Below the pieces are notes generated by a model. The model was not told the origin of the DNA. It ran no database searches and saw only the letters and a program-made list of their open reading frames with translations. The position numbers were made by a program, and so were the translations under genes. Of a DNA stretch of 48,467 bases, positions 34,729 through 44,502 are shown piece by piece; position 1 is the stretch's first letter, and the number at the start of each line of letters is the position of its first letter. Source of the stretch: a virus; the IMG/VR virus record IMGVR_UViG_3300047548_000610, positions 1-48,467 of that record; one strand, 5' to 3'.

Positions 34729-34771
34729 CCCACATAAATAGATAACAAATTAAAGTTATTGTTTATGTGGG
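34729..34771 (+). promoter_or_regulatory. Start-codon-sequestering hairpin of the GIY-YIG endonuclease gene
   Basis: CCCACATAAA (34729-34738) is perfectly complementary to TTTATGTGGG (34762-34771). Inside, ATAAC (34742-34746) pairs with GTTAT (34755-34759), leaving an 8-nt loop. The 3' arm contains the ATG at 34765. Read-through transcripts from upstream genes would bury the start codon. A late motif sits in the 5' arm, so a late transcript would lack that arm. Confidence 0.75.
34733..34740 (+). promoter_or_regulatory. Late promoter CATAAATA inside the hairpin arm
   Basis: It matches seven of eight bases of TATAAATA. A start about 6 nt downstream (near 34746) removes the whole 10-nt 5' arm of the sequestering hairpin and leaves a 19-nt leader before the ATG at 34765. 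Confidence 0.6.
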
Positions 34772-35175
34772 TTTACCAGGGAAATGTCGTTGACGAGTTG
34801 CCAGAAGACTGTGTTGGGTTTGTTTACCTGATTGTTAACACACTCAACGGGAAAAAATACATAGGCAAAAAACTTTCCAAATTCTCAAAAACTTCATATA
34901 AAGTAGTAACACTCAAGAACGGGACGAAAAAACGAAAAAAAATTCGTTCCAAGATAGACTCTGATTGGAAAACATATTGGTCGAGCTCGGAAGATCTAAA
35001 AAAAGATGTAGAAACACTCGGAGAATCAAATTTCACACGTGAAATTCTAAAATATTGCTCATCAAAAAATGAACTGTCTTATTACGAAGCAAAATTCCAG
35101 TTCGACGAAGATGTGCTATTACATGAAGACAAATGGTACAACAAATGGATTTCTGTAAAAGTTAGGTGTATGTAG
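34765..35175 (+). CDS. GIY-YIG homing endonuclease (free-standing)
   Basis: A 136-aa protein of the GIY-YIG nuclease type found in T4-like phages. The GIY element is GFVYLIVNTLNGKKYIGKKL near residues 18-37, followed by an R/K-rich loop and a characteristic DWKTYWSSSEDLKKDV and CSSKNELSYYEAKFQFDEDV segment. It has only this catalytic-like domain and no clear DNA-binding extension. I start it at the ATG at 34765 (MWVYQGN). A TTG six bases upstream is in frame but lies in the hairpin loop side. Context (between gp46 and non-coding DNA) and regulation by a hairpin plus internal late promoter match selfish homing genes of T4. Cleavage site unknown. Confidence 0.8.
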   Translation: MWVYQGNVVDELPEDCVGFVYLIVNTLNGKKYIGKKLSKFSKTSYKVVTLKNGTKKRKKIRSKIDSDWKTYWSSSEDLKKDVETLGESNFTREILKYCSSKNELSYYEAKFQFDEDVLLHEDKWYNKWISVKVRCM

Positions 35176-36098: not shown

Positions 36099-36118
36099 CG
36101 CAAAACAAGGAATTGACT

Positions 36119-37966
36119 ATGGACATCAAGTATTTTATCAGTGAAGCTGCTCCTCAACCTAGGGCACGACCGAAGTTTAAAACAGCAGTAACTCCTGGTG
36201 CTGCGCCGACTCCATCTAGCCCTGCCCCGGCTGCCCCAACGGCAAGACCAAAAAATATTTTTACTGATTCTGCATTATTCCAAGCAGCGTGGGACCAGTA
36301 TGTTCAGTCCAAGACTAGCGGCGATATTCCTTATAGACTCATTTCAGATGTTCGCATGTTAGAAGTTCTCAAAGATATGTGGATGAGGACTGGCGGGACT
36401 GAACTTAAGGAACATATAGCTAACTACGATCAACAACAACTACTGGTTGAAGCTATTAATAGAAGTCATCCTATCTATGAAGGCTGCTACTCTGCGGCAA
36501 AGATGCTGAATGAGGCAACACTTTCGCAGGATCAGATTCAACAAGTATTTCAAGCTGCCGGTGATGCTTCAGAACACGGAATCCCAACAGGATCTGGAGG
36601 TGCCCCAACGAGAGCTGGAAGTACCCCAACAGGTACTGGTACTGCGCCGACAGGCTCTGGTGCTGCTTCCAATAGAACACTTCTTGGTAAAATTACCGAT
36701 AGAGTTTCTGGAGCCTGGAACAAACTCAAAACTTCAATTAGCCAGTCAGGACCAGTACGCGGATTTGATACACTAGTTGATCAACTTCAAGGACAGATCA
36801 TCAAAGCAACTGGCGGTAAAGACGCTGCGGTAGCTCAACAGTTGTTAAAATACCGCCAGTTCGCAAAAAAGCATCCAATTATGCAAGGCGCAATTTACGC
36901 AATTTTTGTTGCGTTAGCTGCCACAGCTGCTGGAGCAACAGGTCCAGCAGCTATTGGTGGAATTGCAGGCGGGCTGAAGCTTGCCGACAGACTTCTTCAA
37001 GGTGACAAAGCATCAAGCGCAATTTGGAGAGCATTTAAGACCGGCGGTGTTGCTGCAGCAGGTACCGCAGCAGTCCAAGGCCTTGCTGGAAGCAACGCTG
37101 CTCAGGGGTCAACAGGCCAGTCTGCTGATCCTTCGGCCGCTTCTGGAGAGCCTGCAACAACAGCATCAGCAGCAGCCTCCACAACTGGCGGATCTGAACA
37201 AATGATTGCCACAGTTCGTCCTGGAAACACTCTGAGTCAAATTGCCCAATCACACGGTGTTAGCGTGAAAGATTTGTTGGCGGCAAATCCTTCAATAACA
37301 AACCCAGATGTGCTGCGTCCCGGAATGGAGCTAGTGATCCCGGATGCTTCTGGGACAACCTACGCATCCGGAGTAGGAACGGCTGCTGATACTGCTTCAA
37401 AAGTAGCATCTGGACAGTATACACCTAGCGCAATTTCCGCAGCGCAAGCTGCCAGAGCCGGCATTAGAGAAAATCGAAAGGTCACTGACGCAGAAATTGC
37501 CAGTATCTTTACTAGCGTGGTTGATGAGGGATTTTTAAGCGGTCTAAAAGCAGCAGCTAAAGCAGGCTGGCGAGCAGCAACAAATAAAGTCACTTATGAA
37601 AAGCTAGACATGAACTGGAGACGAAATTTTGGTGATAATCCAGTTGACGGCCCTGTCGAAGAGCAAGTTGTGAGAGATTTCCTTAAGAAACAAGGTGTTG
37701 CGGATGATGTGATTGAATACGCAATTCGCAAAGTTCTTGGTGCTGGCCCAGCACCAACAACCGACACACCCTCAACTGACGCAGCACCGCAGCCAACAAC
37801 AATTAAAGACTCAGCGACTCTAAGAAGCGACTTTGAATCATTCATGGATTCGGGCGGGTCAATTTCTCCGCAAGTGCGAGGTGTTCTACAAGATATCCTC
37901 AAAACAGCACTGGGAACAGTTCGAGAAAGTTTAGAACTGCTAACACTAAAATATAAACTAATTTAA
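36119..37966 (+). CDS. LysM-domain structural or ejected protein with hydrophobic segment
   Basis: A 615-aa protein, not a T4 homolog that I recognise. In order: a Pro/Ala-rich N-terminus; a helical region (about 55-150); a Thr/Pro/Gly/Ser-rich linker (about 154-185); a hydrophobic Ala/Gly segment (about 257-290: AIYAIFVALAATAAGATGPA, then AIGGIAGG) that could cross a membrane; a second low-complexity linker; a LysM peptidoglycan-binding domain (about 363-408: VRPGNTLSQIAQSHGVSVKD..NP..LRPGMELVIP); and a helical C-terminus. The combination suggests a virion protein acting at the envelope. I start at the ATG at 36119 with AAGGA 7 nt upstream; an in-frame TTG at 36113 is less likely. A strong bidirectional terminator follows. 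Confidence 0.7.
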   Translation: MDIKYFISEAAPQPRARPKFKTAVTPGAAPTPSSPAPAAPTARPKNIFTDSALFQAAWDQYVQSKTSGDIPYRLISDVRMLEVLKDMWMRTGGTELKEHIANYDQQQLLVEAINRSHPIYEGCYSAAKMLNEATLSQDQIQQVFQAAGDASEHGIPTGSGGAPTRAGSTPTGTGTAPTGSGAASNRTLLGKITDRVSGAWNKLKTSISQSGPVRGFDTLVDQLQGQIIKATGGKDAAVAQQLLKYRQFAKKHPIMQGAIYAIFVALAATAAGATGPAAIGGIAGGLKLADRLLQGDKASSAIWRAFKTGGVAAAGTAAVQGLAGSNAAQGSTGQSADPSAASGEPATTASAAASTTGGSEQMIATVRPGNTLSQIAQSHGVSVKDLLAANPSITNPDVLRPGMELVIPDASGTTYASGVGTAADTASKVASGQYTPSAISAAQAARAGIRENRKVTDAEIASIFTSVVDEGFLSGLKAAAKAGWRAATNKVTYEKLDMNWRRNFGDNPVDGPVEEQVVRDFLKKQGVADDVIEYAIRKVLGAGPAPTTDTPSTDAAPQPTTIKDSATLRSDFESFMDSGGSISPQVRGVLQDILKTALGTVRESLELLTLKYKLI

Positions 37967-37969
37967 AAA

Positions 37970-37997
37970 ATAAACCGCCAACTGGCGGTTTATTTTT
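37970..37997. terminator. Bidirectional terminator between convergent genes
   Basis: TAAACCGCC and GGCGGTTTA form a 9-bp stem with a 4-nt loop (AACT). On the plus side ATTTTT follows; on the minus side the flanking A-run gives a T tract. It ends both the LysM gene and the minus-strand chaperone genes. The 3' flank TTATTTTTAGAAGAA is shared with the terminator at the left edge (60-74). Confidence 0.85.
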
Positions 37998-38226
37998 AGA
38001 AGAACGGCATCCCAGTTTCTTTAGATACTTGAATGTTTTCTTCTATGATTTTTCCAACTATTTGTCGTTCATCAGAGGATAACAAATGCGCTTCGCTGTA
38101 GCTTATCCCGCCTCGCATAAACCAGCAAATTTTTAAAAGTTCTTCTTTAATGGCCTTTATATCTCGATCAAATGAAGTGAGAAGTTTTTCAATACCTTCA
38201 TTGTCTAGATACAAAAGCCTTAACCG
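37996..38226 (-). CDS. Frameshift extension of the gp26-like tail chaperone (no start codon of its own)
   Basis: A short frame with the conserved-looking end KICWFMRGGISYSEAHLLSS followed by DERQIVGKIIEENI. It has no ATG before residue 34 of the short form; the only nearby start is a TTG at 38214 with AGG just 2 nt upstream. It lies in the -1 frame relative to the gp26-like gene and stays open back through the slippery heptamer T TTT TTC at 38232-38226. Slippage there would give a 363-aa fusion (287 gp26 codons plus 76). This is the same layout as the gpG/gpGT tail assembly chaperones of lambda. I therefore annotate it as the T-like extension rather than an independent gene. Confidence 0.75.
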   Translation of the reverse strand, partial: RLRLLYLDNEGIEKLLTSFDRDIKAIKEELLKICWFMRGGISYSEAHLLSSDERQIVGKIIEENIQVSKETGMPFF

Positions 38227-39086
38227 AAAAAAGTTGACGGATCAAATGTTAGAGGAACTTCAATAGTCTCGCCAGTGACTCCTGATTCCCGCATTTCATC
38301 AGTAACTGAAACGACTAGGGGCTTGATAGCATTAGCAGTCTGTAACTTCTTTAGATGCTCGTCAATAGTTGTAAAGATTGACTTTTCGCAGTTCGAAACA
38401 AATTCAAAAATGTGATCGGGATTAGACGTGCTGCCATTGACAGTGTCTATCCTGCTGATACTGTTTGAAACAACACCTAGTGTTGCTTTGGAAAGTTTGG
38501 CAAATCCTTCTTTAAAGACTCGAACTTTAGTATCCTCATCGACCTTATCATCGTTAACGACCATCATTAGTTTTTGAGTCTCGAAGGTTTGATTTGCAGC
38601 CTCAGACATTAGTTTATAATTGATAGGTTTAACAAATACAGTAATGTCGCTGTTAAGTGGAATTACGTCATCCCATGTGATCTGATTAGACAACTGATCC
38701 ATAACTAATCTGAGATCAATTTGATATTCTAAATCTAAATCCTTACCGGCGGTGACTGGCACAGTCATCAGTTCACCATATGTGGCAATTCTAATAGCAA
38801 TTAGCAGGTAATCCAAGTCAATACTTGGTGTATGCCACGCATTTTTAATATTTGGAATACAACTCTGTATCACATCTACAACTGCCTGCCCGTTCATAAG
38901 AGCGTCCGGAACCTTTAGACTGAGTTCGTCTTTGGCAGTCATAGAATACACGGGATACTCGCCGGTCTCTGTCAGTTCTAGACTAGACTCGGGCCAAAAA
39001 CGACCATTGCTAGGCAGTCTGATATGAATTTTAGGCTGACGCATGAACATTGCCAAGGGATTAGCAGTTTTTCCAGTGAATTCCAT
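38220..39086 (-). CDS. 26: Baseplate hub/tail chaperone gp26-like protein
   Basis: A 288-aa protein of the T4 gp26 family (longer than the 208-aa T4 protein). The N-terminus MRQPKIHIRLPSNGRFWPES, then VYSMTAKDELSLKVPDALMN, GQAVVDVIQSCIPNIKNAWH and DLDYLLIAIRIATYGELM are the typical conserved blocks. In T4, gp26 is listed with the baseplate hub. By analogy with other tailed phages, proteins like this are thought to help load the tape measure protein. Its last codons ACT TTT TTC GGT TAA contain a slippery heptamer leading into the next frame. It is transcribed away from the tape measure gene from a GATAAATA motif at 39143-39136. Confidence 0.8.
   Translation of the reverse strand: MEFTGKTANPLAMFMRQPKIHIRLPSNGRFWPESSLELTETGEYPVYSMTAKDELSLKVPDALMNGQAVVDVIQSCIPNIKNAWHTPSIDLDYLLIAIRIATYGELMTVPVTAGKDLDLEYQIDLRLVMDQLSNQITWDDVIPLNSDITVFVKPINYKLMSEAANQTFETQKLMMVVNDDKVDEDTKVRVFKEGFAKLSKATLGVVSNSISRIDTVNGSTSNPDHIFEFVSNCEKSIFTTIDEHLKKLQTANAIKPLVVSVTDEMRESGVTGETIEVPLTFDPSTFFG
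38226..38232 (-). other. Programmed -1 frameshift site (T TTT TTC)
   Basis: In the gp26 frame the codons are ACT TTT TTC GGT TAA. A -1 slip on T TTT TTC re-pairs both tRNAs (TTT to TTT, TTC to TTT) and continues CGG TTA AGG CTT TTG with no stop for 76 codons. A possible downstream stem AATGAAG (38202-38196) with CTTCATT (38177-38171) lies about 24 nt further on, farther than usual for a stimulator. Confidence 0.75.
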
Positions 39087-39169: not shown

Positions 39170-41491
39170 ATGGCTGACGTATACGGAACTATAGGGAATG
39201 AACAAGTAGAGCTAAACAATGCTGCGACTGAACAAACGCTCAAAGCACTGTTGGCATTAGCTAAAGTTGATTCAAACACCTTACAAAAGCTAGCAATAAA
39301 ATCTGGAGTAGACGCAAGCGCAATTGCGCAGCTTAATTCAGCAGTAGATGACAGCAGTGATTCGATCGGCGCTGAAAACAGAATACGAGAAAGAAATACT
39401 AGGTCGTTAGAAGATCAAACAGCCAAATATAACAAGTATAATGTTATTTTGGGCGCATTGGGTACTGTCACGTCTGATCTAATGGAGGGAACTGCTAGCG
39501 CGAGCAAGATGTTTACTATAGCATCGACGACTCTATCGCAGTATAACCCTGTTTTATCTCAAATGTTGAGCATTGGCTCAAAGTTATTAGCAATACAAGA
39601 GCAAAACTTTGCCGCTTTTCAAAAAATGTCCAATGTAGGCGTAAACTTTGCCGGTGATCTGATAGAATTAAGGCAAGCAGCTGCAGGCAGCTATTTAACA
39701 CTTGACCAATTCAGCAATCTAGCCTCTGCCAATGGTGAAATGTTTGCTAGAATGGGTGGCAGCGCTAATCAGGGAGCAATTGCTTTTTCAAAGTTTAGCA
39801 ATAATATACTAAAAGGCGAGTTTGGGACGCGAATAACCGCATTAGGGTATTCCTTTGAAGACGCTAATCAATATATGGCAACATTCATAGGCCTAATGGG
39901 AGTTAAAGATGCGAATGATTTAAGAAGTTCATCATCGCTAGTAGAAAGCACCAAAGGATATTTGGACCAGTTAGATAGACTTGCAGATATTACAGGTAAA
40001 AGCAGAAAAGAACAAGAAGAAATCATGAAAAAACAGGCGCTAACCGCCGATGTTAACATGACTGCTGCGAAGATGACAGATGAAAAGCAACGGGCAGCAT
40101 TTTTGTCAAATGTTCAATTCATGACTTCTATGTACGGTGACGCTGGTAAAGATATGGCCGTTGCTCAAGCACAAGGTCGATCGGTGATAACCAAAGGCGG
40201 GCAAATGCTAAGTGCCTTGGCCCCAGGAATGCAAAGCGCAGTATCAAAAATGCAACAAGCCGGGGAGATGTACGGAGTCGGGTCAAAGCAGTACATCGAA
40301 GCCCAGAATGACGTTAGACTTGCTGCTCAAGCGATGGGCACTCTGCCCCCGGCATTGTACAGCGCAAATAAGGATCTTCAAGAATTAGGCACAGCAACAA
40401 ACACAGTTGCGAAGGACCTGTTAACCGGACAAACAACTAAGTCTGCTATGGATAAGGCTGAAGCAGCCCGACAGCAGGCAATTGCCGATGCTCAAGAATC
40501 CTCAGCAGCAGCAATGGCAAACATGAATAAAGCGTTTCTTGAAGTTAGTGCTGCGTTTTGGAAAGCCTTAAAACCTGTTTTTGATGGGATGACTCCAGTC
40601 ATTAACGGTCTAGCAGATTTTGCTGGATGGCTTGCTTCGTTGATTACTGAATTTCCGAAAGTCACAGCAGCTGTGGCAGCGTTGGGTGTAGTAGTTTCAG
40701 GGTATATTACATGGAAACTAAAACAACTAGCGGTTGAGAAGGCCGGCAGTGTTGCTACGAGGGTTTTAGGTGGAGGGGGCGGAGCAGCCGGCGGTGGAGC
40801 AGCCGGCGGTGTCCTTGATAGGATTGGCGGTGCTGGCGGAGCAGCCGGTGGGGGAATGATGCAGGGAGTTGCTGCTGGCCTACGAGCATTTGCGAATCCA
40901 CAAGTGGCCATCGGAGCCGCAGTGTTCGCCGCGTCTATAGCAGCAATCGGAGCCGGCATTGCCGCAGCAGCATGGTTAACTGGTAAGGCACTACCGACGC
41001 TAGCTGAGGGACTGACTGCGATTCAAGAACTTGATGGTGAAAACTTGCTGTCAGTGGCAAAAGGAGCAGGTGCGTTCGGACTCAGCTTGTTAGCATTTGT
41101 GCCATCTGCTCTGTTTATCATGCCAGCGGCTCTAGGTGTTAATATGCTTGCCGAAGGTTTGCTCAAGATGAATAAAGTTGATACTGGTCAGCTGTTAAAA
41201 GTTGCTGAAGCCATGGAAAAGGTAAACGCAGCAACTCCCTCAGTAGCACAAACACTAAAAATGGGATTCGCTGGTATAGTTAACAAGGTTGTTGGACCAT
41301 CTACACCTGCTGCAGCGCCCGTCAGTGAAACCTCGATCTCCCCTGAAGCGAATCCTGTGGCTGCTGAACTAAAACGGTTAAATAGTGTAAACGCGGAAAT
41401 GCTACGAAGCATTAAGGAAGTAGTTGAATATTCCAAGAGAAATGTTGATGCTACAAAGTCGTTAAATGGCAATCTCTTCGCAACAGTATAA
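39170..41491 (+). CDS. Tail tape measure protein (gp29 equivalent)
   Basis: A 773-aa, helical, Ala-rich protein with the features of a tape measure. It has a long coiled N-terminal half (TASASKMFTIASTTLSQYNP, NFAAFQKMSNVGVNFAGDLI, DQLDRLADITGKSRKEQEEI). Three hydrophobic segments follow at about 493-520, 578-608 and 631-660, and a Gly/Ala-rich stretch at about 534-565. The hydrophobic segments are typical of tape measure proteins that insert into the host membrane. T4 gp29 is 590 aa, so a somewhat longer tail than T4's would be expected if length scales. It sits next to the gp26-like chaperone, as expected, but on the opposite strand. Sequence homology to gp29 itself is not obvious by eye. 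Confidence 0.72.
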   Translation: MADVYGTIGNEQVELNNAATEQTLKALLALAKVDSNTLQKLAIKSGVDASAIAQLNSAVDDSSDSIGAENRIRERNTRSLEDQTAKYNKYNVILGALGTVTSDLMEGTASASKMFTIASTTLSQYNPVLSQMLSIGSKLLAIQEQNFAAFQKMSNVGVNFAGDLIELRQAAAGSYLTLDQFSNLASANGEMFARMGGSANQGAIAFSKFSNNILKGEFGTRITALGYSFEDANQYMATFIGLMGVKDANDLRSSSSLVESTKGYLDQLDRLADITGKSRKEQEEIMKKQALTADVNMTAAKMTDEKQRAAFLSNVQFMTSMYGDAGKDMAVAQAQGRSVITKGGQMLSALAPGMQSAVSKMQQAGEMYGVGSKQYIEAQNDVRLAAQAMGTLPPALYSANKDLQELGTATNTVAKDLLTGQTTKSAMDKAEAARQQAIADAQESSAAAMANMNKAFLEVSAAFWKALKPVFDGMTPVINGLADFAGWLASLITEFPKVTAAVAALGVVVSGYITWKLKQLAVEKAGSVATRVLGGGGGAAGGGAAGGVLDRIGGAGGAAGGGMMQGVAAGLRAFANPQVAIGAAVFAASIAAIGAGIAAAAWLTGKALPTLAEGLTAIQELDGENLLSVAKGAGAFGLSLLAFVPSALFIMPAALGVNMLAEGLLKMNKVDTGQLLKVAEAMEKVNAATPSVAQTLKMGFAGIVNKVVGPSTPAAAPVSETSISPEANPVAAELKRLNSVNAEMLRSIKEVVEYSKRNVDATKSLNGNLFATV

Positions 41492-41502
41492 AGTAAATCA
41501 AT

Positions 41503-44502
41503 ATGGCATGGTTAAAATATTTTACCCCAGTTAATACTAATGGACAAATGAGTCCAATTAGTGGCTCGATGGTCTCGAACGCAAATCCCAGTAGGACTAA
41601 CTATTCTAGCTATTTGCCAGATGTGTATGCTGGCCACCCGAATCGTCTTGAAAGATACGGTCAGTATGACACTATGGATACTGACAGTGAAGTAAACGCT
41701 GCTTTAGATATATTAGCAGAGTTTTGTACACAGGAAAACACCGAAAATAAAACGCAGTTCAGCCTCAATTTCAAAGAACAAGCGACGAATGCTGAAGTGA
41801 CAATTATTAAAAAGTACCTGCAGCAATGGTGTAAACTTAATAAATTTAATAAGAGGTTGTTTAAGATTGTTAGAAACGCCTTCAAGTATGGCGACGTATT
41901 CTTTGTTCGCGATCCAGAAACGCAGAATTGGATGTATGTAGACCCTGCTAAAGTTGATAAAATTATTGTAAATGAAAGTGACGGCAAAAAACCTGAACAG
42001 TATCACATCAGAGATTTCAATCCAAACTTAGAAGCTCTATCAACTACTGCTATTAACCCTAGCAACTTACAAGGTGGAGGAAGCACTTTTGGTGGGAGTT
42101 ACGGAACTGGACAAGGTGGCGCTGGTGGAAGCCGTGGTATGGTTGGATCGTTTCCGACAAGCGCGAGCTCTAGTAGATTTACAACTAATCAAAATCAATA
42201 CGCAATTGACGCACGACATGTGATCCACATCAGCATGAGCGAGGGACTAGACAATAACTACCCATTTGGTAACAGCTTGCTGGAAAGTATCTTTAAAGTT
42301 TTTAAACAGAAAGAACTATTAGAAGATGCGATTATCATCTATCGCGTACAGCGTGCCCCAGAACGCCGTGTGTTCTATATTGACGTTGGAAATATGCCTA
42401 GCCACTTGGCAATGGGATTTGTTGAACGAGTGAAGAACGAAGTCAACCAACGACGCATTCCAAGTACAACTGGCGGTAGCCAAACAGTTGTTGATTCATC
42501 GTACAACCCGTTGTGTTTGGATTTAGATACCAAAATACCATTACTAGATGGGAGAACCTTAACTCTTACTGAACTTATTGAAGAATTCAACGAAGGTAAG
42601 GAAAACTGGGCATATAGTTGTAATCCTGAAACTGGCGAAGTTGTCCCTGGCGTCATTAACTGGGCAGGGATCACTCGTAAAAATACCGAAGTTATTAAGT
42701 TGACTTTCGATAATGGCCGAGAATTAATATGTACACCGGATCATAAAATTCCAGTATTCGGACGTGGATTTGTTGAAGCTAAAGATTTAACTCCATCTGA
42801 TAGTTTAATAGCATTTAATACCCAAATGGCGCCAATCGCCGGCGGCGGTAACGATTACCAGCAAGTTTGGGACCATTCAACAAAATCATGGAAATGGACT
42901 CATAGAGTAGTTGGAGAGTTTTTTAGATCCAGAAACAAGCACCAAGAATTTACATATTTAGAAGAGAATATTGGGAAGCCAAAAACTGTAATTCATCATA
43001 GAGACTCCAATAGGTATAATAACGATCCAAGGAATTTGACCTATATGGATAAGGCCGATCACATTTTGTTCCACGCCTCTCAAAAGAAAGACTTTTGGGA
43101 AAATATGTCTAATGAATATAGAGCAGAAATGACTGGAAAAATTTCTAATACCTTAAAACATCATTGGCAAAATATGTCAGAGCAAGAACGACTTTCTGCT
43201 CTGTGGAATATTAGATCAGCACAGAAAAAAGCCGTGTGGATGCGGGCTAATGATCCCGATACTGCTGCTAGGTATAAAAAGAACGCATCTGAAGCACGTA
43301 AAAAATATATTCAAAATAATCCAGATTTTTCTGACCAACTGTTAGTGAATTTGGAAAATCGAGTTAAAATTAAAAATCAAGAATTAGTCTTAACATTTGA
43401 CATGCTTCAAATTGTAGCAGACAAAGTCAAGTCCGGTGTGACTAATAAAAATCAAGTGATTGAACTCTGTGATAACGATCGTAAATTACTTGAGTTGGTT
43501 AAACTCAACAATAGTGATTCGTTAGATTATAAAAATGCTCATTGTAAAATTGATTTTACAAAATTCGGGTATTCTAAATTGGACAGGTTGCTCGCCCTAC
43601 ATGGATACAAGAACTGGAAAACGTTTGTGAAGGAAATTGCAAATTTTAATCATAGAATTGTAAAAATTGAAAAGGTTTCTAATAGAGATACTGGCACAAT
43701 TACTATTGATGGAACTGAGCGCTGGCACAATTACCATACTTTTGCTATTGAATCTGGAATTTTTGTTAAAAACTCTATTAATGAAGATTACTTCTTCCCA
43801 CAAACAGCAGAAGGTCGTGGTTCAAAAGTTGAAATCCTTCCAGGCGGAACGAACTTAGGTGAGATTGATGACTTGAAGTACTTTACTAACAAGCTGTTTA
43901 GAGCATTAAGAATTCCTAGCAGCTATTTGCCAACAGGGTCTGATGATGGCGGATCGAACTTCAACGACGGTCGGGTCGGAACCGCGTACATTCAAGAACT
44001 ACGATTTAACAAATACTGCGAACGATTACAGTCTCTAATGAACGATATTTTCGATTACGAGTTCAAACTGTATTTGAAAAACAAAGGAATCAATGTCGAT
44101 GACAACATCTTCGATGTAAAGTTTAATCCTCCACAGAACTTTGCTAGCTATCGTCAAGCAGAGATGGATACGGCTCGCGTGAACACGTTTGGCACAATGT
44201 CTCAAGTTCCGTTTGTAAGTAAGAGGTTTGCGCTGAAACGATTCCTCGGCCTATCCTCAGAGGAGGTTGCTGAAAACGAAACCTTATGGAAAGAAGAAAA
44301 CGTTGATTCTGATCAACAACTAAGCGCAAGTGCTGAGTTGAGAATGCAAGGAATTACTGCAAACGGAATAGGGTCGGATCTAAGCGGCCTAGCCGGAGCA
44401 ACCAGTGTCCCTGCTCCGGGTGAAGAACCTGAAGCCGGTGGCGAAATGCCCGGAGCAGAAATGCCAGGAGCAGAACCTACTCCACCGACGTCTGGAGTAT
44501 AA
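41503..44502 (+). CDS. 20: Portal vertex protein gp20 interrupted by an intein
   Basis: The portal ring at the head-tail vertex, through which DNA is packaged. The open frame is 999 aa. Removing the intein (residues 338-757) leaves 579 aa, close to known gp20 sizes (T4 524). Portal segments include DTDSEVNAALDILAEFCTQE (near residue 60), NNYPFGNSLLESIFKVFKQK (about 250), APERRVFYIDVGNMPSHLAM, and after the intein NEDYFFPQTAEGRGSKVEIL, LGEIDDLKYFTNKLFRALRI and PSSYLPTG. The N-extein ends SSYNPL and the C-extein starts SINEDYFF, so splicing restores the conserved portal segment. The C-terminus is Pro/Gly/Glu-rich. The stop codon overlaps a perfect TATAAATA. Confidence 0.95.
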   Translation: MAWLKYFTPVNTNGQMSPISGSMVSNANPSRTNYSSYLPDVYAGHPNRLERYGQYDTMDTDSEVNAALDILAEFCTQENTENKTQFSLNFKEQATNAEVTIIKKYLQQWCKLNKFNKRLFKIVRNAFKYGDVFFVRDPETQNWMYVDPAKVDKIIVNESDGKKPEQYHIRDFNPNLEALSTTAINPSNLQGGGSTFGGSYGTGQGGAGGSRGMVGSFPTSASSSRFTTNQNQYAIDARHVIHISMSEGLDNNYPFGNSLLESIFKVFKQKELLEDAIIIYRVQRAPERRVFYIDVGNMPSHLAMGFVERVKNEVNQRRIPSTTGGSQTVVDSSYNPLCLDLDTKIPLLDGRTLTLTELIEEFNEGKENWAYSCNPETGEVVPGVINWAGITRKNTEVIKLTFDNGRELICTPDHKIPVFGRGFVEAKDLTPSDSLIAFNTQMAPIAGGGNDYQQVWDHSTKSWKWTHRVVGEFFRSRNKHQEFTYLEENIGKPKTVIHHRDSNRYNNDPRNLTYMDKADHILFHASQKKDFWENMSNEYRAEMTGKISNTLKHHWQNMSEQERLSALWNIRSAQKKAVWMRANDPDTAARYKKNASEARKKYIQNNPDFSDQLLVNLENRVKIKNQELVLTFDMLQIVADKVKSGVTNKNQVIELCDNDRKLLELVKLNNSDSLDYKNAHCKIDFTKFGYSKLDRLLALHGYKNWKTFVKEIANFNHRIVKIEKVSNRDTGTITIDGTERWHNYHTFAIESGIFVKNSINEDYFFPQTAEGRGSKVEILPGGTNLGEIDDLKYFTNKLFRALRIPSSYLPTGSDDGGSNFNDGRVGTAYIQELRFNKYCERLQSLMNDIFDYEFKLYLKNKGINVDDNIFDVKFNPPQNFASYRQAEMDTARVNTFGTMSQVPFVSKRFALKRFLGLSSEEVAENETLWKEENVDSDQQLSASAELRMQGITANGIGSDLSGLAGATSVPAPGEEPEAGGEMPGAEMPGAEPTPPTSGV
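42514..43773 (+). mobile_element. Intein with HNH homing endonuclease in gp20
   Basis: A 420-aa in-frame insertion (gp20 residues 338-757). Block A is CLDLDTKIPLLDGRTL, beginning with the splicing Cys. Block B is ELICTPDHKIPVFGRGF, with the TxxH motif. The C-terminal blocks are WHNYHTFAIESGIFVKN followed by Ser of the extein. Between them lies an HNH nuclease (about residues 494-525: VIHHRDSNRYNNDPRNLTYM and DHILFHAS). The penultimate residue is Lys instead of the usual His. A+T content is visibly higher than in the exteins: two 60-nt samples counted by hand give 27% and 33% G+C against 48% in one extein sample. This suggests recent transfer. Confidence 0.92.

Follow-up and report, generated by a model that had tools for sequence, protein, structure and literature searches.

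The gp26-like gene of this virus is very probably a tail-assembly chaperone gene of a T4-like (jumbo-type) myovirus, in which a -1 frameshift stimulated by a downstream RNA stem would yield a short and a long product. The gene was found in a 48.5-kb virus record (IMG/VR record IMGVR_UViG_3300047548_000610), and 'the window' hereafter means the whole stretch of 48,467 nucleotides that was analyzed. The short product is called TAC-N, the -1 extension TAC-C and the fusion TAC-NC, and the positions of all features are collected in Table 1. We infer the slipping itself, its rate, the stem as its cause and the chaperone role of both products as follows. Most ribosomes would keep to the 0 frame and terminate at 38220, so that the short TAC-N of 288 aa is made, and a fraction of them would be made to pause at T TTT TTC by the stem-loop 6 nt downstream. 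The paused ribosomes would slip back by one base, with both Phe-tRNAs re-pairing on TTT TTT, and would then read 76 more codons to produce the long TAC-NC of 363 aa. The tape measure protein would be coated by many copies of TAC-N and a few of TAC-NC, whose helical TAC-C domain would bring in the tail tube subunit, in the manner of lambda gpG/gpGT. The locus can encode both a short and a long form, and the -1 extension is conserved at the sequence level.

Table 1. Features of the putative frameshifted chaperone locus and its neighbor (positions in the window)
Feature	Position	Strand	Basis
TAC-N, gp26-like tail-assembly chaperone (putative), 288 aa, 0 frame	38220..39086	-	PF12322, phrog_150, AF2/BFVD
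Slippery heptamer T TTT TTC (X XXY YYZ, 0 frame)	38226..38232	-	Sequence, conservation
6-nt spacer GGTTAA, includes the 0-frame stop TAA (38222-38220)	38220..38225	-	Sequence
Stem 5' arm, GGCUUUUGUAUCU	38207..38219	-	Stem search, covariation, folding
Stem-loop loop, 42 nt, predicted to fold further in this phage	38165..38206	-	Stem search, folding
Stem 3' arm, AGAUAUAAAGGCC	38152..38164	-	Stem search, covariation, folding
TAC-C, putative -1 extension, 76 codons plus TAA (37998-37996)	37996..38226	-	Conserved -1 frame, AF2
Probable tape measure protein, 773 aa, candidate client	39170..41491	+	Position, RaK2 annotation, GAP32 similarity

The 288-aa open reading frame matched PF12322, the Pfam family of T4 gp26, with an E-value of 1.2e-8 (35.4 bits against a curated cut-off of 24.5) and phrog_150, 'baseplate hub', with an E-value of 3.9e-12. 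Its AF2 model had a pLDDT of 86.5, and the best matches to it in BFVD were T4-like entries named 'baseplate hub assembly protein'; the fold had no significant match in the PDB, and a nucleotide search of annotated phages returned no match. On the minus strand, the 3' end of the gene reads ...TCA ACT TTT TTC GGT TAA AGG..., and the slippery heptamer that the original prediction had placed in the last codons is indeed present there and in frame. The -1 frame after the slip runs CGG TTA AGG CTT TTG TAT CTA GAC AAT GAA... and stays open to its TAA. The downstream frame thus lies exactly in -1 and is open across the slippery site, as had been claimed, and the fusion has the predicted length of 363 aa (287 + 76). 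The 72 codons given earlier for this frame are counted from its TTG; the extension that follows the slip comprises 76 codons. The sole start near the downstream frame is this TTG at 38214, 5 nt past the 0-frame stop and with an AAGG 3 nt away, in agreement with the earlier description of a TTG with a badly spaced AGG.

We compared this site with those of its relatives. A single scan of IMG/VR found 76 loci that encode the gp26-like gene, and the site was checked in those containing the 3' end of the gene; 16 isolated jumbo phages (PA5oct, RaK2, 121Q, GAP32, CBB, Munch, BF, Atu_ph07, Phosso, XaC1, XbC2, Kaldavass, Hallingskeid, SCTP-2, Vibrio 2.275 and XacN1) were also included, and these pooled with this phage amounted to 69 distinct fusions. 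At all of the IMG/VR loci with the 3' end, the heptamer was in frame and the -1 frame remained open for ~70-74 codons past the 0-frame stop, except that two contigs end at 34-36. T TTT TTC was found in 15 of the 16 jumbo phages and T TTT TTT in XacN1, all in frame, and their -1 frames were open for 57-75 codons beyond the 0-frame stop. The +1 frame was shut within 15 codons at all of these IMG/VR loci and in all of the jumbo phages but one, Atu_ph07, where it ran for 29 codons. The 0-frame stop was located 10, 16, 19, 25 or 40 nt from the start of the heptamer among the 69 fusions, and the codon preceding the heptamer occurred in seven variants (ACT, AAT, TAT, GAT, AGT, CAT and CGT), which all end in T and encode differing amino acids. 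Other in-frame copies of TTTTTTC in the same genes numbered just 3 in 18,922 positions. Judged from these comparisons, the heptamer with its open -1 frame is not due to chance. Loss of the heptamer and a different relative frame had both been named in advance as findings that would speak against frameshifting, and neither was seen, given that T TTT TTC is kept in 69/69 distinct fusions and the downstream frame lies in -1 in every case. Essentially all members of this large group of T4-like phages, both uncultivated and jumbo, share the frameshifted chaperone layout.

The six-T run present in all sites also raises the question of transcriptional slippage, in which RNA polymerase would slip on the run and the long form would be translated from a mixed mRNA. 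Such slippage is possible in HTVC008M and phiM12, where the T runs are longer. However, six T's make a short run for RNA polymerase to slip on efficiently, and the retained X XXY YYZ register and the covarying stem downstream both fit slippage by the ribosome. We therefore consider an origin of the long form in transcription to be extremely improbable.

Under frameshifting by the ribosome, which we prefer, the region behind the heptamer would be read as protein in the -1 frame. Its substitution pattern indicates that the extension is evolving as a protein under purifying selection in that frame: variability at the three codon positions was 0.32/0.22/0.48 among the 69 relatives, and the median dN/dS was about 0.23, which is a guide value because many pairs are saturated. 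Conservation starts exactly at the slip, with FFRxRLL followed by the invariant residues W37, R40 and R56, and the AF2 model of TAC-C is all-helical with a pLDDT of 86.6. The 72-aa downstream frame alone gave nothing usable against Pfam and PHROG. Taken together, the selection in the -1 frame, the conservation beginning at the slip and the helical prediction favor a fusion over a separately started gene.

Such a gene would begin at TTG 38214 and be translated by termination-reinitiation coupled to the gp26-like stop. The short distance of 5 nt between the stop and this TTG and the AAGG upstream are consistent with reinitiation, as are the retention of TTG at the same place in 24 of the 69 relatives, the presence in seven of an ATG at extension codon 1-2 (0-based) that overlaps or adjoins the stop, and the separate hypothetical genes entered in GenBank for several jumbo phages. 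On the other hand, 36 of the 69 have no ATG, GTG or TTG within the first 12 extension codons (one relative is without any start), and the protein is conserved from FFR on, upstream of any start. Reinitiation also leaves unexplained an invariant in-frame heptamer after a variable codon and a covarying stem at the distance of a slip stimulator, and we regard it as very improbable. A good downstream start, the third of the findings named in advance, is thus not the rule in the relatives, and with all three negative, the programmed -1 frameshift of the original prediction is supported.

In GenBank, the -1 extension is entered as separate hypothetical genes with internal starts in several jumbo phages (our loci L077-L093) and is not annotated at all in the PA5oct and RaK2 records. 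These treatments of the extension in jumbo phages are probably annotation errors. Database entries contain either the 'baseplate hub' gene on its own or this gene plus a spurious small hypothetical one, and the present analysis supplies a corrected gene model.

By comparative analysis, a covarying stem is conserved downstream of the heptamer, an element that the original prediction had missed. In this phage, GGCUUUUGUAUCU pairs with AGAUAUAAAGGCC through 13 pairs, two of which are G-U, around a loop of 42 nt, and the stem core begins after a 6-nt spacer, inside the 5-9 nt range for a stimulatory RNA structure. An explicit stem search put the start of the stem 4-7 nt past the heptamer in most sequences. 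When folded against shuffles, 80-nt windows downstream of the heptamer gave a mean z of -2.8, compared with -0.2 for a 60-nt internal control; folding in short windows (45-60 nt) was rejected as a stem detector, because with a loop of about 42 nt the stem was missed. Pairing was retained in 87.9% of the cells of 33 aligned sequences, with two-sided changes in 9 of 17 pairs. Compensatory cells numbered 41, against 13.4 +/- 3.1 in shuffles (0/500) and 3-9 when the arm was slid, and the top three covarying column pairs obtained with no structure assumed (22-73, 23-72 and 21-74) are all within the stem. A synonymous-recoding control in which the protein was kept gave a mean z of -3.7 in the 33 sequences and -4.2 in this phage, compared with -0.7 for a control stretch. 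The stem region of this phage had a fold z of -4.8 (0/200 shuffles), and a search of positions 38000-38300 against Rfam gave no match.

Stems of other sequence occur at about the same place in other relatives, namely GCCTCCT/AGGAGGC in the group L052-L068, within which it is invariant, AGGATCTCAA/TTGAGATCCT in L042, GGCTCTTTGTACT/AGAACAAAGAGCC in Atu_ph07 and CCATCAAGTCC/GGACTTGATGG in XacN1; this is also the case for Phosso, and S-PM2 has a 14-bp hairpin there. L044 and L073 differ in that the hairpin is compact, with loop lengths of 8 and 17 nt instead of the long loop, at an unchanged distance from the heptamer. Where a group has a clear stem, its 5' arm begins at roughly +4 to +10 past the heptamer; the position of the 3' arm and the length of the loop are variable. 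The RaK2/GAP32-like enterobacterial jumbo phages have a weak stem or none (mean z, -1.3), although their heptamer is invariant, and RNAalifold gave no credible structure for the RaK2-like group. Because these phages keep an invariant heptamer without a convincing stem, the stem is not universally required. A Shine-Dalgarno-like stimulator upstream was found in 0 of the 69 distinct relatives.

The RaK2/GAP32-like group, with its heptamer and little or no stem, would also suit a stem with a role other than frameshifting, such as mRNA stability, a terminator-like function or coupling, and a slip brought about by the heptamer alone. However, the 5' arm is held at the classic stimulator distance while the 3' arm and loop vary, and no poly-U tract follows the stem. 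Thus, we think such a role unlikely and suggest that the stem probably triggers the slip. On balance, we lean towards the wider view that, in a broad jumbo/T4-like lineage, a long-range stem that is selected and covarying drives chaperone frameshifting; its 5' arm would be fixed at the slip site, and its 3' arm, loop length and sequence would have been rebuilt several times. This would represent an undescribed class of phage frameshift stimulator, lost from T4 together with the slip site and either weak or no longer present in the RaK2-like phages.

The 773-aa neighbor is probably the tape measure protein and hence the candidate client of the chaperone. The RaK2 open reading frame in the same place is annotated as 'similar to ... 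tail tape measure protein', and in a six-sequence set the neighbor showed weak similarity to its GAP32 counterpart (E-value, 2.8e-7); against Pfam, it had no match at a usable E-value. The original prediction had likened the locus to the lambda gpG/gpGT layout beside a tape measure gene, which is borne out for the short form and its predicted -1 fusion but not for the gene arrangement: the tape-measure-like gene adjoins the chaperone gene but is divergent from it, on the opposite strand. Beyond it, at 41503-44502 (+), a T4-type portal gene (gp20, PF07230) is split by an intein, in frame and carrying an HNH endonuclease region (PF14890 at residues 345-643, HNH_3). On the other side, a 617-aa LysM-domain protein (PF01476) with Pro/Ala-rich linkers is encoded at 36113-37966 (+), convergent with the extension and ending about 30 nt from its stop. 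A 138-aa open reading frame at 34759-35175 (+), with a TTG start and GFVYLIVNTLNGKKYIGKKL near its N-terminus, resembles a GIY-YIG homing endonuclease by eye.

Among other T4-like phages, the T TTT TTC site is also present in S-PM2, KVP40 and phiW-14, and T TTT TTT in HTVC008M and phiM12; in these five, the -1 frame is open for 55-62 codons past the stop. T4 differs in having two genes and no heptamer at the end of gene 26 (GAG TTC TTT GAG TTA CTA TAA), whereas this phage has one gene with a slip site. T4 gene 51 is on the opposite strand from gene 26, so that the two are separate, divergent genes. A direct HMM comparison of the fusion profile with T4 gp26/gp51 gave a match too weak to use, and the relationship to T4 was therefore established through Pfam: gp26 and its paralogue gp51 both match over their full length PF12322, the family to which TAC-N of this phage is also assigned. 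The -1 extensions of S-PM2 and KVP40 can be aligned with the C-terminus of gp51, and the extension family of this phage gave an alignment of 32 columns with the gp51/S-PM2/KVP40 set (hhalign P, 3.5e-5; probability, 72%), a possible sign of a shared C-terminal domain. Within the Straboviridae, the slip site is kept in KVP40 (L099/L104) and absent in T4 (L094), which carries gene 51. The change between a single slip gene and two genes thus seems to have taken place inside this family. How T4 came to replace a slip site by two genes becomes a sharper question, given the slip site of KVP40 in the same family. Vladimirov et al. in 2022 reportedly described frameshifting in several T4-like groups, and genes 26 and 51 in T4.

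The frameshifted chaperone type itself is already known in T4-like phages, since Vladimirov, Gautam and Davidson (2022; Virology 566:9-15) identified their tail-assembly chaperones, according to passages in PMC12846349 and PMC10885494; the earlier statement that T4-like phages have no standard annotation of this kind is out of date. Citing that work, passages in PMC12846349 place polyT -1 slip sites in 'TAC-N genes of T4-like phages', and passages in PMC10885494 attribute separate short and long genes to other T4-like phages. As portrayed there, these chaperones have a gp26-type TAC-N, a polyT -1 slip near the 3' end and a short -1 C-terminal domain, as in this phage. In those passages of PMC12846349, the slip site of a related locus is backed by conservation, and an RNA stem is not named. 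A 2016 review (PMC5009743) describes G-T frameshifting as conserved 'except T4'. The covarying stem is the new part; we found no description of it in the literature, and Vladimirov et al. (2022) may contain one. The comparative set of heptamer, TAC-C domain and stem is ready for testing how phages tune the ratio of short to long product.

In lambda, the slip heptamer is G GGA AAG and the gene order is G-T-H. In this phage, by contrast, the heptamer is T TTT TTC and is followed by a long covarying stem, and the tape measure candidate is divergent, not downstream. The likeness to lambda gpG/gpGT (Levin 1993; Xu 2004, 2013, 2014; PMC5009743) consists in a short form with a rare -1 fusion, a slip at the 3' end of the gene and a position beside the tape measure gene.
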